Virus record (IMG/VR): IMGVR_UViG_3300010045_000003
Location: 1-42,299 of that record
Strand: one strand, 5' to 3'
From: a virus
DNA length: 42,299 nt
Position 1 is the first letter of the stretch; every line of letters starts with the position of its first letter. This document shows positions 8,821 through 34,313 of this stretch, piece by piece. Both the position numbers and the translations under genes were made by a program. The notes under the pieces were generated by a model that worked only from the letters and a program-made list of their open reading frames with translations, had not been told where the DNA came from and did no database searches.

Positions 8821-9071
8821 TGATTGCGCTCCCGTGAGTCCATGGCGCCCAGAAGGAATTGCGCGACCTGCGTAGTCAGCTCCGTCCGCCGTTCCGTGTC
8901 GGCTGCGTCCCACTCTTCACGGTCGATGTACGCCTTCCACCCGTGAAGATGGTTTCCGATGCGGAACTGAAGGTTGATCATCACCTTCTTTTTCTTCAGG
9001 TCCGGTCGCGTGTCCCGTGCCTTGACACTCTCCGCGACCTCGCCGCCGTAGTGTCCTTCGTTCATGGTCAT
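8817..9071 (-). CDS. Small hypothetical protein (84 aa)
   Basis: Starts MTMNEGHYGGEVAESVKARD. The ATG at 9071 overlaps the upstream TAA by one base (TAATG) behind GAGGAG; a second ATG follows two codons later. A lysine run (DLKKKKVMINLQF) sits in the middle and the C-terminus is helical. It is coupled to the polymerase by a GTGA overlap. No family recognised. Confidence 0.6.
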   Translation of the reverse strand: MTMNEGHYGGEVAESVKARDTRPDLKKKKVMINLQFRIGNHLHGWKAYIDREEWDAADTERRTELTTQVAQFLLGAMDSRERNQ

Positions 9072-9484
9072 TATCCCAGCTCCTCTTCTTTGATCACTTC
9101 GGCTGTGCCGTCCTCGGACACCTGGATCACTGTGATGCCGGACGGACCGGTCTGCGACGGGTCAATGCCGACACGGATCATGGACACCGGGATCTCCTCA
9201 GTGATCGCGTCAGCCGACGGCGGGTCCCACGCTTCCAGGGCGTCGATGACACTGATGGAGTCGGCGCGCCGGATCGTGCGCTCATACGCGGCGTTTACAG
9301 CCCCCCATGCCGTGCCCGGTACCGGCTCGTACGTCTCCTTCAGCCTGACGGCTTCCTGGAACGCCTCGGACCACTGCTCTTCCAGGGTGCGGAAGGCGCG
9401 CTGGAGACGCTGGTGCTCAACGGTCAGATCCTGGAACCTCCGGCGCAGTCCGCGCCAGGGGACCTGTGCCTTGTGCTTGGCCAT
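9071..9484 (-). CDS. Hypothetical protein with N-terminal coiled coil (137 aa)
   Basis: Starts MAKHKAQVPWRGLRRRF; an ATG two codons upstream (9490) is an alternative. A basic N-terminus leads into a helix of about 45 residues (DLTVEHQRLQRAFRTLEEQ) likely to form a coiled coil. The C-terminal part has strands SMIRVGIDPSQTG and GITVIQVSEDG; GIDPSQTG recalls the first strand of RNase H-like folds, but no further acidic motif confirms a nuclease. It belongs to the polymerase operon. Confidence 0.6.
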   Translation of the reverse strand: MAKHKAQVPWRGLRRRFQDLTVEHQRLQRAFRTLEEQWSEAFQEAVRLKETYEPVPGTAWGAVNAAYERTIRRADSISVIDALEAWDPPSADAITEEIPVSMIRVGIDPSQTGPSGITVIQVSEDGTAEVIKEEELG

Positions 9485-10867: not shown

Positions 10868-11538
10868 CGGCGTATGCTTCCGCCGACACCGCCCGGGGTC
10901 ATCCCCAGTCCCATCCCGGTGGCGTAGAAGTCCCGCATGGACGCCTTGTAGTACCCACGCTCCGGGCCCCCGTTGGCAACGCTCTCAGCATGCCGTGCCT
11001 TGCAGATCTCGATCCAGGAGGAATACTCCCGGCGCGCGTGCGTGCCGAGGGTGAGCGCGTCCAGCAGGATGCGGTTCGCGATCCGGTACGGACGTCCGTC
11101 CGTACCGCCGTCGGCTGCGGGACTGGAGGCCGCGTATCCGCGCTCGTTGCAGAGATCGCAGTGACAGTCCAGGATCTGACCGAGGAACGGGGCGAACTCC
11201 GTCCGGCCGGGTGCTGGGTCCGTCCAGATCTTCAGCGTCCGGTCACACCGGACGGTGACGCTCTCCCGTGCGGGGGTCCGGAAGTCCTCCGGCTCCCGGA
11301 GGTACCGGAGCTGGTCCGGGCGCAGGTCGTGTACGGCCCGGGACACCCAGCGGGACAGCACCGGCGTGGCGTACCCCTCGGTCTTCTCGGTCCCGGCACT
11401 CAGCACCGCGAAGGTGTCCCGACCGTGGTTGCGGGAGCGGAAGAGGTCTCCCACTCCCAAGCGTCCGAAGTGCACAGTGGTCCACTGCTCCCGGTCGAAT
11501 CCGGGGGCGTCCTGGATCACCCAGTCAACTGCTTTCAT
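10864..11538 (-). CDS. Hypothetical protein with Cys cluster (224 aa)
   Basis: Starts MKAVDWVIQDAPGFDREQW at an ATGA overlap. Mixed alpha/beta protein; the centre contains ILDCHCDLCNERGYA, a compact Cys/His cluster likely to bind metal, and the C-terminus is Gly-rich (GMGLGMTPGGVGGSIRR). No catalytic motif is recognised. It is the second gene of the leftward operon, so it is probably expressed early. Confidence 0.65.
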   Translation of the reverse strand: MKAVDWVIQDAPGFDREQWTTVHFGRLGVGDLFRSRNHGRDTFAVLSAGTEKTEGYATPVLSRWVSRAVHDLRPDQLRYLREPEDFRTPARESVTVRCDRTLKIWTDPAPGRTEFAPFLGQILDCHCDLCNERGYAASSPAADGGTDGRPYRIANRILLDALTLGTHARREYSSWIEICKARHAESVANGGPERGYYKASMRDFYATGMGLGMTPGGVGGSIRR

Positions 11539-23395: not shown

Positions 23396-25140
<1,745 letters not shown>

Positions 25141-25216
25141 TCTGGCACTGCTCGACTCCACGCCAGGTACGAGGACCGTTCGTGTTTGACGGCGCGGGCG
25201 TACAACTCCACAGGCG

Positions 25217-25255
25217 ATGCCCCCGGTGGACGCGGTGTCCACGGCCCGGGGGCAT
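25217..25255 (+). terminator. Strong terminator hairpin after lysin
   Basis: ATGCCCCCGG (25217-25226) pairs perfectly with CCGGGGGCAT (25246-25255); inside is a second 5-bp hairpin, TGGAC / GTCCA. A T-containing stretch (TTGTCG) follows. It lies just after the lysin stop and probably ends that transcript. Confidence 0.7.
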
Positions 25256-25274
25256 TGTCGTATCCTGAGGGTGT

Positions 25275-25342
25275 GGCGGAGGTCGCTGGTTCGAATCCAG
25301 TCACTCCTTCGTGGGTGTAGCGCAGCTTGGTAGCGCGCCGTC
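25275..25342 (+). other. tRNA-like halves in permuted order (3' half before 5' half)
   Basis: First: GGCGG (25275-25279, anticodon-stem-like), AGGTC variable, T-arm GCTGG-TTCGAAT-CCAGT (25285-25301), then CACTCCT (25302-25308). Two bases later: GTGGGTG (25311-25317), TA, D-arm GCGC-AGCTTGGTA-GCGC (25320-25336), G, then CCGTC (25338-25342). CCGTC pairs with GGCGG over five positions (one G-U). GTGGGTG pairs with CACTCCT at six positions including two G-U, with one T-C mismatch. So the parts of one tRNA cloverleaf are present but circularly permuted. No uridine follows CCGTC where position 33 is expected, so decoding is doubtful. Confidence 0.45.
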
Positions 25343-25347
25343 GGCAG

Positions 25348-25370
25348 AAGCGGGTCCTAGAGGCCCGCTT
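25348..25370 (+). terminator. Hairpin AAGCGGG / CCCGCTT with TCCTAGAGG loop
   Basis: Seven-bp stem (25348-25354 / 25364-25370) and a nine-base loop that contains CTA, followed by TGTCG. It ends the tRNA-like segment and may be a terminator or a structural element of the RNA. Confidence 0.5.
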
Positions 25371-25386
25371 TGTCGTACCCTGAGTT

Positions 25387-25407
25387 TGATGACCCGCCCG
25401 GTCATCA
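25387..25407 (+). other. Hairpin TGATGACC / GGTCATCA
   Basis: Perfect 8-bp arms (25387-25394, 25400-25407) with a CGCCC loop. No T-run follows. Candidate operator or RNA structure in the interval before the large terminase. Confidence 0.45.
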
Positions 25408-25453
25408 CGGCGCCGTGGTCTAGGCTTCGGCCGGTGTAAGCGGTTCCGCACTA

Positions 25454-25489
25454 CCCCCGTGTCCAGCCTTCGTGTTGCGGTCACGGGGG
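25454..25489 (+). terminator. Terminator before large terminase
   Basis: CCCCCGTG (25454-25461) pairs with CACGGGGG (25482-25489), loop of 20 bases, followed by CTTTGTGTTT, the best T-run in the region. It would stop transcripts from the left, so the terminase probably has its own promoter (a CATACT element at 25511-25516 lies 7 bp before the ATG). Confidence 0.6.
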
Positions 25490-25523
25490 CTTTGTGTTTC
25501 CCGGACGCGGCATACTGATCGAC

Positions 25524-26888
25524 ATGGGTGAGGTCGGACGGCTGGCACGGAGGATCAACCTCCTGGACGCGGACCGTGTCCACCGGCAGACGCGGAAGTG
25601 GCACCCGGAGCCGCACCAGGTGCCTCCTCCGGGTGAATGGCGCGGCTGGGCTCTGCTTGCCGGCCGTGGGGCCGGCAAGACCGACGCGTGCGCGGCGTAC
25701 GTCCAGCAGCACGTGGCCGGACCACCGTGCCTACCCGGCCCGGTCCCGCACTGGATAGGGATCATCGCTCCGACTCTTGGTGACGCGGCCACGTCGTGCT
25801 TTTCCGGTCCGTCCGGGATCCGCGTCCACTCTCCCGGAGCGAAGCTGGTCAATTCCATCGGTGGTGCCACGGTCCGGTGGCCGAATGGCTCAGAGGCGAA
25901 GCTCTTCGGTGCGCATACACCAGAAGACGTCGAACGTCTACGTTCTGGCGGAAATCGCTGCCTGAATTGGCTCGAAGAATTGGCCGCGTGGCGGTATCTG
26001 GACGCCGCGTGGGCGCACATGCGCTTCGGACTGCGTGTCGGCCCCCGCCCGCACTGGATCGCGTCGACCACTCCCAAGCCGAAGATGCTGATCAAGAGGC
26101 TGAACAACGGGGAGATGACCGGTGTGGTCGTCACCCGCGCCTCGATGTACGACAACCCCCACCTCCAGGACGACATCAAGGAAGCCCTCGAAGAGGAGTA
26201 CGGCGGCACGCAGCTGGGGCGTCAGGAACTGTATGCCGAGGTCATGGAACAGGACGAGAACGCCCTGTGGACCCGTGACCTGATCGACATGTCACGTGTC
26301 CTGCGGGACGCCACACCGGACATGGTCCGTCGGACCGTGGGTGTGGACCCGTCTGGGGGCGCCGGCGAACAGGGGATCGTTGTTGTCGGCAAGTCGATGC
26401 AGCGACGGGAGCACGAGGACCCGCGCAAACGCGTGGAGCTGCCGCACGGGTACGTCCTGGCGGACCGCACGGTCCAGCTCTCTCCGGACGGATGGGGCCG
26501 GCGCGCGGTACAGGCGGCCGTCGACTACGAGTGCGACGACATCTGTGTCGAGATCAACTACGGCGGGGACATGGCGGTGTCGACCATTCGGTCCGCCGCT
26601 GAGCACATGGGGATCAACATTCCGATCCGTGTCGTGAGGGCAACGCGCGGGAAACGCGTCCGTGCGGAGCCGGTGGCCGCTCTCACGGAACAGGGCCGGT
26701 GGCATGTCGTAGGCAACCTCCCCGCGCTGGAGAACCAGCTGACGACCTGGTACCCAGAGCTGAACTGGAGCCCTGACCGGCTGGATGCGATGGTATGGCC
26801 CGGCTGGCACCAGAAGATCGTCAAGCTGACCATGACGGGAACCGCTACGCCCGGTGGCATGTCTTCGATCAATAGGAAGATCGCCTGA
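25524..26888 (+). CDS. Terminase large subunit
   Basis: 454 aa from the ATG at 25524; a GTG at 25494 would add ten residues. No ribosome site precedes it, but CATACT is placed for a leaderless start. Walker A LAGRGAGKT (47-53 region), Walker B-like CLNWLEELAAW, coupling region WIASTTPKPK, then the RNase H-fold nuclease: GVDPSGGAGEQG (Asp near 275) and later DAMVWPG. It is the ATP-driven motor that cuts and packages phage DNA through the portal. Order with the portal and capsid genes supports the call. Confidence 0.92.
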   Translation: MGEVGRLARRINLLDADRVHRQTRKWHPEPHQVPPPGEWRGWALLAGRGAGKTDACAAYVQQHVAGPPCLPGPVPHWIGIIAPTLGDAATSCFSGPSGIRVHSPGAKLVNSIGGATVRWPNGSEAKLFGAHTPEDVERLRSGGNRCLNWLEELAAWRYLDAAWAHMRFGLRVGPRPHWIASTTPKPKMLIKRLNNGEMTGVVVTRASMYDNPHLQDDIKEALEEEYGGTQLGRQELYAEVMEQDENALWTRDLIDMSRVLRDATPDMVRRTVGVDPSGGAGEQGIVVVGKSMQRREHEDPRKRVELPHGYVLADRTVQLSPDGWGRRAVQAAVDYECDDICVEINYGGDMAVSTIRSAAEHMGINIPIRVVRATRGKRVRAEPVAALTEQGRWHVVGNLPALENQLTTWYPELNWSPDRLDAMVWPGWHQKIVKLTMTGTATPGGMSSINRKIA

Positions 26889-31032: not shown

Positions 31033-31342
31033 TCTGATCGATCTAGGAGAAGGGCACACATGCGAATTCGCGCAGTGGGCTCCCGACCGTGATCTCAATC
31101 CCCATGTAGCCGATGTCCCGGATGAGCCTCGATACGCTCTTTTGATCCATCACCAGAATCCAGCTGGTGAAGGGTGCGCAGGGATGGTCACTTTCGCCGG
31201 TGATGTACAGAGACGGGTAGAACCGGACCGGCCGAACGTCTGGGACGTTCAGTCCTGGGATCCGCTGACGATCAGCCCGTCTGTGCTGTGCTCCTGTGGG
31301 GACCACGGATTTATCCGGGAAGGACGGTGGGTCCGTGCCTGA
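31025..31342 (+). CDS. Hypothetical protein (DUF6527-like, 105 aa)
   Basis: Starts MADLIDLGEGHTCEFAQW; overlaps the portal by 8 bp. The C-terminus SPSVLCSCGDHGFIREGRW matches the recurring LC-CGxHGFI-xGxW tail of a small phage/bacterial family. A Cys pair and His suggest metal binding. Function unknown. It is coupled to the next gene by a GTG inside its end. Confidence 0.6.
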   Translation: MADLIDLGEGHTCEFAQWAPDRDLNPHVADVPDEPRYALLIHHQNPAGEGCAGMVTFAGDVQRRVEPDRPNVWDVQSWDPLTISPSVLCSCGDHGFIREGRWVRA

Positions 31343-34313
31343 GATCGAGGTGAACGAGGGCGGCGACATGCTGCGCGCGCAGATCCGGCTGCCAGACAGA
31401 GCTGTCATCCGGATGCACCGACGCGGTCACCACATCCAGAAGGCGCATGGTCGCCGGATCGCACTCGCGGCCGACACCAGCCATCAGGCCGGAGGCATGA
31501 TCGCGCTGATGCCGACGGCGGCCGATGCGAAGCGTCTCGCCATGCAGGGCGGTGAGGCAGCGGCAGAGCTGCACTGCACGCTGTTCTTCCTCGGAGACGA
31601 CGGCGCAGTCTGGACCGAGGAACAACGCAACGAGCTGGAAGCGCTGATCCGCAGCCGTGCCGAGGAGCTGCCTCCGGTGAACGCGCGCGTGTTCGGCGCC
31701 GCGCACTGGAACGGTGACGGAGAGAAGCCCTCGTGGGTGTGGTCCGTCGGAGATGATCCCGAAGCGGGACTGGCGGACAGCTCCCTGAACGAGGCGCGCT
31801 ACCTTGCACAGGATGCACTGGAGTCTACTCACGAACGCCCGGAGATTCCGCAGCAGCACTCTCCATGGGTCGCGCACATCTGCGCAGCGTACAGCGATGA
31901 CCTCACCCTGGTCCGGGGACTGGAGAAGCGACTCGGTCCGGTCACCTTCGACCGGATCCGGCTCTCCTTCGGGGACGACGATCGGGACATCCCTCTCGAA
32001 GGGACGGCCGGCAGCCTCACCGCCGGCGGACTGCGCCGTGACGTTCTGCCGCATGAGGACGCAGTCGACTTCGCGGAACACAACCGGCAGTGGGAGGGCG
32101 CCGTCGACTCCACGGCCAATCAGCTGTCCGGTGTTCTGGCGCAGTGGCGTACGTCGCTCACGGACCAAGTCGCCGCACTGATCAACGATCCCGGTGACCT
32201 GTCCGCTCTCACGCTCGATGCTGCACCGGCTGTGGAGATCCTCGACAGCACCATGAGCGCACTTGCCATCCGAGCCGGCCAGGCACTCCAGCGTGAAGCG
32301 GAGAAGCAGGGCGTGGACGTCGGGCAGTGGTCTCTTCCGGATGATGTGATCACGGCGGCCGTGGGAGGCAAGAAACTGCTTCGCTCGGTCGCTCAGATGA
32401 CGTCTGATCTCATGGCGTCCAGCATGGTCCAGCGGGTACGCCGGACGGTCCTCGGACTGCTCACTCGGTCGGGAGAACCCCAGCAGATCGCGGACGAGAT
32501 CGGCCGTGTGCTCAGCGACGAACAGGCACAGCTGCTCAGGGGACCGGTCGGCACGGCCATGTCCACGGCGCAGACAGCGGGCCGACAGGCGGTCCTTGAG
32601 GCCGCCCCACCTGGGGAGTATTACGCCAGTGAGGTGCTCGACAAGAACACGTGCGGGCCATGTAAGGCGGTCGACGGTGAACAGTTCGGTGACCTGGAGC
32701 GCGCGATCAAGGCGTACCCCGTCATGGGCTACAAGGACTGCGTCGGATCGAAGTACGGGAACCCCTGCCGAGGGATGATCATCGCCCGGTGGCAGACCGA
32801 TGAGGACGAAGCACAAACCGCTTCAGCGGCTACCATGCGCGCAGATCACGCGTCGGAAGGAGACGCCACGATGACCACCGAAACCTTGAAGCAGGGCGAC
32901 CCGAACCAGGGGACGAAGAAGGACAAGAGGCTCAAGGAGAACCAGTACGGCGGCATGGAGAACGACTGCCCCGACGGCATGGAACCGGACCAGCAGACCG
33001 GCAAGTGCGTGGAGATGGCGGCCGGTGTCCAGACGCTGGAGGTACAGGGCCCGGCTCCCGAGGACATCGGCGGCGAGAACACGGCGCCGTGGCGCGGACC
33101 GCTCACGGTGGAAGGCATCGAGACCGGTGATGGCCGGGAGTTCGATGCCGAGTCCCTCACGTGGGCCGACCTTCCCCTCCCGCTCCGCTGGAATAAGGAG
33201 GACAGCCACGGCGGTGAGCCGCGCACCATCGCCGTCAACGTCGGACGCATCGACAAGATCTGGCGCGAGGACTCCGGCCTGATCATGGGCGAAGGACTCC
33301 TCGACCTGTCCGACGACGACGGCCGCAAGGTGCACGGCAAGATCAAGGGCAAGTTCCTCCGTGGTGTCTCGGTCGACGTCGACTCGGTCAAGGGCGCCGA
33401 CATGGAGATGGTCTGGCCAGACCAGCCGGACGGTGAGGGCGACGACCCGGATCCGTTCATGCAGATGTTCGCGGAACCGGAGAAGGTGGTGTTCCACAAG
33501 GGACGCATCCGCGCCGCGACCCTCGTCGACATCCCCGCATTCGCTGAGGCGTACATCGCTCTCCTCGATGAGGGCGGCGCCGTCGTCGCCGGCGGGGAGC
33601 CGATCGGCGCACTGCGCGCGGGACAGGCACCCCGGCACCGGTCCTTCGCCGTCGCCGTCCCCACCCGGGCGCCGGTCGACTGGTTCGCCAACCCGGATCT
33701 TTCCGTACCGACTGGGATCACGGTTACCGCCGACGGCCGGGTCTACGGGCACGCGGCCCTGTGGGGGACGTGCCACATCGGACAGGCCGGAGTCTGCGTC
33801 ACACCCCCGCAGGAGGACAGCCACCCGTACTTCATGACCGGCAACACCTGGACCGAGGACGGCGGATCAGTCTCCGTCGGACAGATCACCGTCGGCACCA
33901 GGCACGCCCCGCTGACGGCCGGACACCGCGCGGCCTCCGACCACTACGACAACACCGGCGCCGCAGTCGCGGATGTTTCTGTCGGGAACGACGCGCATGG
34001 GATATGGGTCGCCGGCTCGATCCGGCCCGGCGCTTCCGCCGAGCGGGTGCACGAACTCCGGGCGGCCGGACAGGTGTCGGGTGACTGGCGACGCATCGGC
34101 GGCCAGCTCCGCCTGGTCGGACTCCTGGCGGTCAACGTCCCTGGCTTTCCGGTGCCCAAGCTGGGGACCGCGCTGTCAGGCGGCCAGCAGTTGGCGCTGG
34201 TCGCGGCAGGGATGCCCAACCTGACGGAGCAGCTGACGGAAGACGAGCTGGACCAGATGGCCTACCGTAGGATCATGCTCAAGCTGAACGAACGAGTGCA
34301 CGGAAAGGGTTGA
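31335..34313 (+). CDS. 2H phosphoesterase / MuF-like head protein / prohead protease fusion
   Basis: 992 aa, GTG at 31335. Residues about 45-235: 2H phosphoesterase-like, with HCTLFFLGDD (His80, Thr82) and SPWVAHICAAYSDD (His181; Cys183 in place of the second Ser/Thr). Residues about 240-500: MuF-like, a long helix bundle then CGPC (440-443), GYKDCVGSKYGNPCRGM. From about 513: a protease-like domain (WADLPLPLRWNKEDSHGG, KGKFLRGVSVDVDSV), as in fused MuF/maturation proteases. At 32871 an in-frame ATG follows AAGGAG, so the protease may also be made separately. Roles: head morphogenesis, capsid maturation, and possibly RNA or cyclic-nucleotide cleavage. Confidence 0.75.
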   Translation: MPEIEVNEGGDMLRAQIRLPDRAVIRMHRRGHHIQKAHGRRIALAADTSHQAGGMIALMPTAADAKRLAMQGGEAAAELHCTLFFLGDDGAVWTEEQRNELEALIRSRAEELPPVNARVFGAAHWNGDGEKPSWVWSVGDDPEAGLADSSLNEARYLAQDALESTHERPEIPQQHSPWVAHICAAYSDDLTLVRGLEKRLGPVTFDRIRLSFGDDDRDIPLEGTAGSLTAGGLRRDVLPHEDAVDFAEHNRQWEGAVDSTANQLSGVLAQWRTSLTDQVAALINDPGDLSALTLDAAPAVEILDSTMSALAIRAGQALQREAEKQGVDVGQWSLPDDVITAAVGGKKLLRSVAQMTSDLMASSMVQRVRRTVLGLLTRSGEPQQIADEIGRVLSDEQAQLLRGPVGTAMSTAQTAGRQAVLEAAPPGEYYASEVLDKNTCGPCKAVDGEQFGDLERAIKAYPVMGYKDCVGSKYGNPCRGMIIARWQTDEDEAQTASAATMRADHASEGDATMTTETLKQGDPNQGTKKDKRLKENQYGGMENDCPDGMEPDQQTGKCVEMAAGVQTLEVQGPAPEDIGGENTAPWRGPLTVEGIETGDGREFDAESLTWADLPLPLRWNKEDSHGGEPRTIAVNVGRIDKIWREDSGLIMGEGLLDLSDDDGRKVHGKIKGKFLRGVSVDVDSVKGADMEMVWPDQPDGEGDDPDPFMQMFAEPEKVVFHKGRIRAATLVDIPAFAEAYIALLDEGGAVVAGGEPIGALRAGQAPRHRSFAVAVPTRAPVDWFANPDLSVPTGITVTADGRVYGHAALWGTCHIGQAGVCVTPPQEDSHPYFMTGNTWTEDGGSVSVGQITVGTRHAPLTAGHRAASDHYDNTGAAVADVSVGNDAHGIWVAGSIRPGASAERVHELRAAGQVSGDWRRIGGQLRLVGLLAVNVPGFPVPKLGTALSGGQQLALVAAGMPNLTEQLTEDELDQMAYRRIMLKLNERVHGKG

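Follow-up and report, generated by a model that had tools for sequence, protein, structure and literature searches.

Gene neighborhood and structure of the element

The DNA analyzed here (hereafter, the window) comprises all 42,299 nt of IMG/VR record IMGVR_UViG_3300010045_000003, the partial genome of a Streptomyces-type phage related to Streptomyces phages, with relatives of up to 99 kb. On its plus strand, to which all window coordinates below refer, an intergenic stretch is bounded by a lysin-like gene with a LysM end (23,431–25,140) and by terL, the gene for the large terminase subunit (25,494–26,888), and holds, in this order, a hairpin designated HP1, a tRNA-like module, a second hairpin, HP2, and a terminator-like hairpin with a T-rich tail (25,454–25,489), after which terL begins. 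No sigma-70-like promoter was found in the region of the element. Elsewhere in the window, a single frame of 1005 aa (31,296–34,310) gives an RNA-ligase profile match near its start and portal and protease profile matches further on.

The module (25,275–25,342) consists of a T-arm, an acceptor-like hairpin, and a D-arm in permuted order, held together by a five-pair closing stem that resembles an anticodon stem. The pairing of the two strands of this stem, GGCGG (25,275–25,279) and CCGTC (25,338–25,342), over five positions had been pointed out in a preliminary description of this DNA and was confirmed (5/5). The T-arm (GCTGG-TTCGAAT-CCAGT, 25,285–25,301) is paired at 5/5 positions around the loop TTCGAAT, and the D-arm (GCGC-AGCTTGGTA-GCGC, 25,320–25,336) at 4/4 positions around the loop AGCTTGGTA. 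The acceptor-like hairpin (CACTCC-TTCG-TGGGTG, 25,302–25,317), separated from the D-arm by the dinucleotide TA, forms five pairs, including one G-U, with a C.U mismatch at the tetraloop. The six of seven acceptor pairs reported earlier are obtained when this hairpin is read with a 2-nt loop; the gap between the two strands is, however, better interpreted as a UUCG tetraloop, and the whole as a capped hairpin. The conserved loop motifs are intact, and two stem positions carry swapped pairs that keep the pairing, namely T-A instead of the usual G-C at T-stem position 3 (T3) and G-C instead of the usual T-A at D-stem position 3 (D3). Inspection of the element revealed no anticodon arm, discriminator, or CCA.

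The computed minimum free energy (MFE) structure of the module is a different fold (−25.3 vs −20.7 kcal/mol for the tRNA-like fold, a gap of 4.6 kcal/mol), and in longer sequence context the pair probabilities of the tRNA-like fold are near zero; similar or larger gaps are seen in several modules linked to Ro60 genes. Because the module keeps its T and D arms, in which the pairs at T3 and D3 are swapped, we think that it probably still folds as a tRNA mimic.

Assignment to the YrlA family

The only RNA family in Rfam that matches the element is YrlA (RF02553), which aligns to 25,277–25,341 through model positions 23–86 of 114, that is, through its tRNA-like domain, with 38.9 bits (E = 3.5e-5 over the window). 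This is under the curated gathering score of 69, a threshold that does not discriminate for phage members, given that phage Y RNAs adjacent to Ro60 genes score just 26–55 bits. A covariance model (R1) built from 27 phage modules, with the window left out of the training set, matched 25,273–25,344 with 54.7 bits (E = 1e-19). Across these 27 modules, 18 of the 21 pairs showed two-sided changes, among them every one of the seven pairs in the acceptor-like helix, and 89% of the cells were paired, compared with 69% in shuffles. The permuted tRNA-like topology proposed in the preliminary description was borne out, and the compensatory changes that it proposed to look for in related phages are seen in these modules.

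In mycobacteriophage Sparky, a homologous module precedes the Ro-like gene by about 300 nt, and the same module adjoins the Ro60 genes of other actinophages and of Streptomyces. Altogether, our scans yielded 227 distinct modules, many of them beside Ro60 genes, a set that includes some from Streptomyces chromosomes and some that possibly overlap ordinary tRNAs. Permuted tRNA-like modules are therefore common in phages, contrary to the earlier remark that no phage example was known. A search for near relatives using the window's own motif yielded six matches, all of which overlap or resemble the T-arms of ordinary tRNAs and were rejected.

In sequence, topology, and family, the element represents the tRNA-like module of a Y RNA of the YrlA type. 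We file it neither as a full Y RNA nor as a permuted tRNA gene; it is not filed as a full Y RNA because the module is present but no canonical basal stem was found, with the search for a linked Ro60 gene covering a partial genome.

Flanking hairpins and direct repeats

HP1 (25,213–25,259), upstream of the module, has a 14-bp outer stem, the longest GC-rich stem of the region, and a 5-bp inner stem, whereas HP2 (25,342–25,375), downstream of it, is a 14-bp stem with one bulge. Both are more stable than shuffled sequence (−35.3 kcal/mol, z = −4.4, and −21.1 kcal/mol, z = −3.85, respectively), and the outer stem of HP1 weakly matches a Y-RNA outer stem (E = 0.015 in 601 bases).

The 15-bp flanking repeats on which the preliminary description had drawn do exist, with 14 of 15 positions identical between TTGTCGTATCCTGAG (25,255–25,269) and TTGTCGTACCCTGAG (25,370–25,384). 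They are not traces of a permutation, but the ends of the 3′ arms of HP1 and HP2 together with the adjoining tails; the arms GATGC/GCATT and GAAGC/GCTTT differ by a single T-A to A-T swap that preserves both stems. Since the repeats are arms of two hairpins, a history of duplication and loss is unnecessary, and for the same reason the possibility that they are Ro60-binding 5′ strands like those of Sparky was dropped. Their interpretation as an operator or promoter family was rejected, with just two copies present and no sigma-70-like promoter in the region. The sole exact match to the repeat in IMG/VR lies in an apparent coding sequence of an RNA-phage-like contig and is attributed to chance.

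Ro60 linkage and synteny in related phages

The basal stem of a Y RNA is formed by its paired 5′ and 3′ ends and carries the Ro60-binding site. A second model (R2), built from 22 full-length actinobacterial Y RNAs (phage and Streptomyces), matched Ro60-linked Y RNAs over the full span of positions 1–141 with 49–129 bits (best match per locus); end-to-end matches were also obtained outside the training set, in a related phage (G026, 89.6 bits), in S. africanus (120.6 bits), and in Sparky (49.3 bits). In the window, by contrast, only positions 44–113 were matched (33 bits), and two other viral loci (L012 and L015) likewise matched in the module part alone. Pairing between the flanks of the window module was the weakest among the 162 modules ranked (z = +1.7, compared with a median of −2.0). 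Near the element, the 5′ and 3′ Ro-site profiles scored at background, and two motifs that vary little or not at all across the training sequences, TACTTC and GATCTC, are absent. Hence, by the span of the R2 match and by flank pairing, no canonical basal stem with a Ro60-binding site surrounds the module.

No gene for a TROVE (Ro60) protein was found in the 42-kb record, an incomplete genome. Among 46 relatives identified through TerL, three (G009, G026, and G044; TerL 59–72% identical to that of the window phage) encode Ro60, and all three also carry YrlA, whereas the other 43 yielded no convincing YrlA; of three weak matches among these, two, in G021 and G034, lie at ordinary tRNA genes, and the third is in G017. 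In G044, lysin and terL are followed by g27, g27b, the Y RNA, Ro60, a methyltransferase-like gene, and portal, in this order; the cassettes of G009 and G026 likewise lie between terL and portal. In the window, this backbone recurs without the cassette, with no Ro60 in the slot between g27b and the methyltransferase-like gene, and the module is located upstream of terL instead. Neither a module scan nor a reading of 29 upstream regions revealed the same element between lysin and terL in any of the relatives. The co-occurrence of YrlA and Ro60 in relatives hints that a Ro60 is either encoded nearby in the genome or supplied by the host.

Possible readings: an orphan module, a remnant, or a remodeled Y RNA

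The reading that we favor, while giving it about as much doubt as belief, is that a Streptomyces-type phage has retained the tRNA-like (effector) module of a YrlA-type Y RNA but not the basal stem through which Ro60 is usually bound. Such an orphan tRNA mimic probably uses the Ro60 of the host or none. Its transcript would be a small structured RNA with HP1 and HP2 on either side of the module, would fold as a tRNA mimic, and would bind a host protein that recognizes the shape of tRNA, serving as a tether or a decoy; PNPase, or else a tRNA-modifying or tRNA-cutting enzyme, would be the most likely partner. In YrlA, the tRNA-like domain is bound by PNPase and is a substrate for modification by tRNA enzymes (PMC8394870), and by analogy the module probably binds a protein of this kind; the idea of a nuclease decoy has been raised previously (PMC7790460). 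The module may once have belonged to a Y RNA-Ro60 cassette like those of the relatives. Several observations count against the orphan reading: the record is incomplete, and Ro60 could lie outside its 42 kb; YrlA goes with Ro60 in the TerL relatives; an outer stem is possible (see below); and the tRNA-like fold is not the MFE structure. The module may act alone, with host Ro60, or via a remodeled outer stem.

The element could also be what is left of a YrlA gene in decay, with no present function; we consider this unlikely, although it is the best of the alternatives. The failure to find a Ro60 stem or a Ro60 gene in this partial record, the imperfect acceptor hairpin, and a position unique among the relatives would all fit decay. 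The T-arm, D-arm, and closing stem are, however, fully paired, with the swapped pairs at T3 and D3 keeping that pairing; the conserved loop motifs are intact; and the strong flanking hairpins share a swap within paired arms.

Slightly more doubtful is a complete Y RNA with a remodeled basal stem (25,181–25,208 paired with 25,382–25,410) around HP1, the module, and HP2, for which Ro60 would come from the host or from the unsequenced part of the genome. This outer stem is present in both the MFE and the centroid structures of 25,178–25,413 (z = −4.45), and the duplex of the flanks stands at 1% of shuffles for the whole flanks and at 0.4% for chosen sub-flanks. Its 3′ strand contains TTTGAT at the expected place (compare TTTGATCTC in Ro60-linked Y RNAs), a motif with just five copies in 42 kb, and also a competing local hairpin, TGATGACC/GGTCATCA (25,387–25,407). 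The tracking of Ro60 by YrlA in relatives and the presence of a TROVE protein in 81 of 150 sampled Streptomyces genomes fit this scenario as well. Against it stand the R2 match that stops at the module, the background scores of both Ro-site profiles, the missing TACTTC and GATCTC, and a length of about 230 nt, compared with the 90–150 reported for YrlA (PMC8394870). We regard the predicted outer stem as suggestive only.

Ordinary and permuted tRNA genes

The preliminary description proposed a circularly permuted tRNA gene, the product of which would mature into a tRNA; this is now very improbable. The arms are indeed in permuted order and repeats are present on both sides, but the element has no anticodon arm and no discriminator or CCA, its acceptor strands are joined by UUCG, and its best match among RNA families is YrlA. 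A score with a covariance model was not accepted as proof of a module on its own, given that tandem ordinary tRNAs reach 64 bits with the module model; because tandem tRNA genes score well in this way, complementarity was tested directly. The same motif was used to select 99 tandem pairs of ordinary tRNAs; in no pair did at least 6/7 acceptor pairs coincide with a closing stem of 5/5, a combination found in the window and in six of nine other loci without an ARAGORN tRNA. The alternative that the preliminary description itself had raised, two tRNA remnants side by side, is refuted by this pairing test and by the absence of any ARAGORN tRNA call in the window, and we discount it almost completely, the high scores of tandem tRNAs and the matches of the YrlA family in control genomes notwithstanding.

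Related module loci

Modules without full Y-RNA stems also occur in other viral contigs. In L061 (IMGVR_UViG_3300005529_000005, minus strand, about 2161–2310 of the reverse complement), two tandem permuted modules, each with its own closing stem, precede a hairpin that has a T-rich tail, and no TROVE gene was found in the 74-kb contig. L012 (IMGVR_UViG_3300005511_000096, 8950–9084), where the full Y-RNA model matches the module part only, likewise has two tandem modules, with the closing stems CACG/CGTG and CGGGGG/CCCCCG. In L015 (IMGVR_UViG_3300015263_000597, 11,350–11,480), a permuted module apparently replaces the anticodon arm of a tRNA-like body, so that two bodies share one stem. Apparent chains of modules linked by short hairpins are seen at L391 and L349. 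Just upstream of a Ro60 gene, a tRNA match in L143 (2658–2782) is interrupted in its anticodon region by a 59-nt insert resembling Y-RNA strands, and in Rhodococcus phage Trina (L148, 2143–2351) an annotated 209-nt pseudo "tRNA-OTHER" overlaps Y-RNA-like modules upstream of Ro. In our survey, the permuted tRNA-like module was common in viral contigs, mostly unannotated, and missed by tRNA finders.

Tentatively, and with the expectation that it is rather less likely to hold than to fail, we raise the possibility that phages carry a class of Ro60-independent, YrlA-derived tRNA-mimic RNAs, single in the window, tandem in L012 and L061, and fused in L015, that would act alone on host enzymes recognizing tRNA. 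Should the module function independently of Ro60, the part of Y RNAs that mimics tRNA would be separable from the protein ring, which would suggest that phages use it on its own, for instance as a means of steering PNPase or of distracting tRNA-modifying or tRNA-cutting enzymes.

Comparison with known systems

The order of its halves is what the element has in common with the circularly permuted tRNA genes known from algae and archaea, from which it differs in having no anticodon, acceptor end, or processing junction. With L012, L061, and L015, it shares a module without full Y-RNA stems in a contig without TROVE; the window has a single module, unlike the tandem pairs of L012 and L061 and the fusion to a tRNA-like body in L015. 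Bacterial YrlA is modified by the tRNA enzymes TruB and DusA, and such a Y RNA forms the RYPER particle with Ro60 (Rsr) and PNPase. In contrast to the YrlA/Ro60 system, the element has no recognizable Ro60-binding basal stem and its record no Ro60 gene, and it has two additional strong flanking hairpins and a location between lysin and terL. Compared with the window, the cassette of G044 lies between g27b and the methyltransferase-like gene and comprises full Y-RNA stems, mini Y RNAs, and Ro60. The unusual part of the element is what is missing, the canonical Ro60-binding stem and, in this partial record, Ro60; the module itself belongs to a known RNA family. As in YrlA, a T-arm, an acceptor hairpin, and a D-arm in permuted order are combined with a closing stem resembling that of an anticodon, and the acceptor hairpin is capped by UUCG as in many phage members. 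The same module is part of the Y RNA and Ro60 cassettes of actinophages, including Sparky, Gordonia, Microbacterium, and Streptomyces phages and the relatives G009, G026, and G044, to the last three of which the window phage is also related in its backbone.
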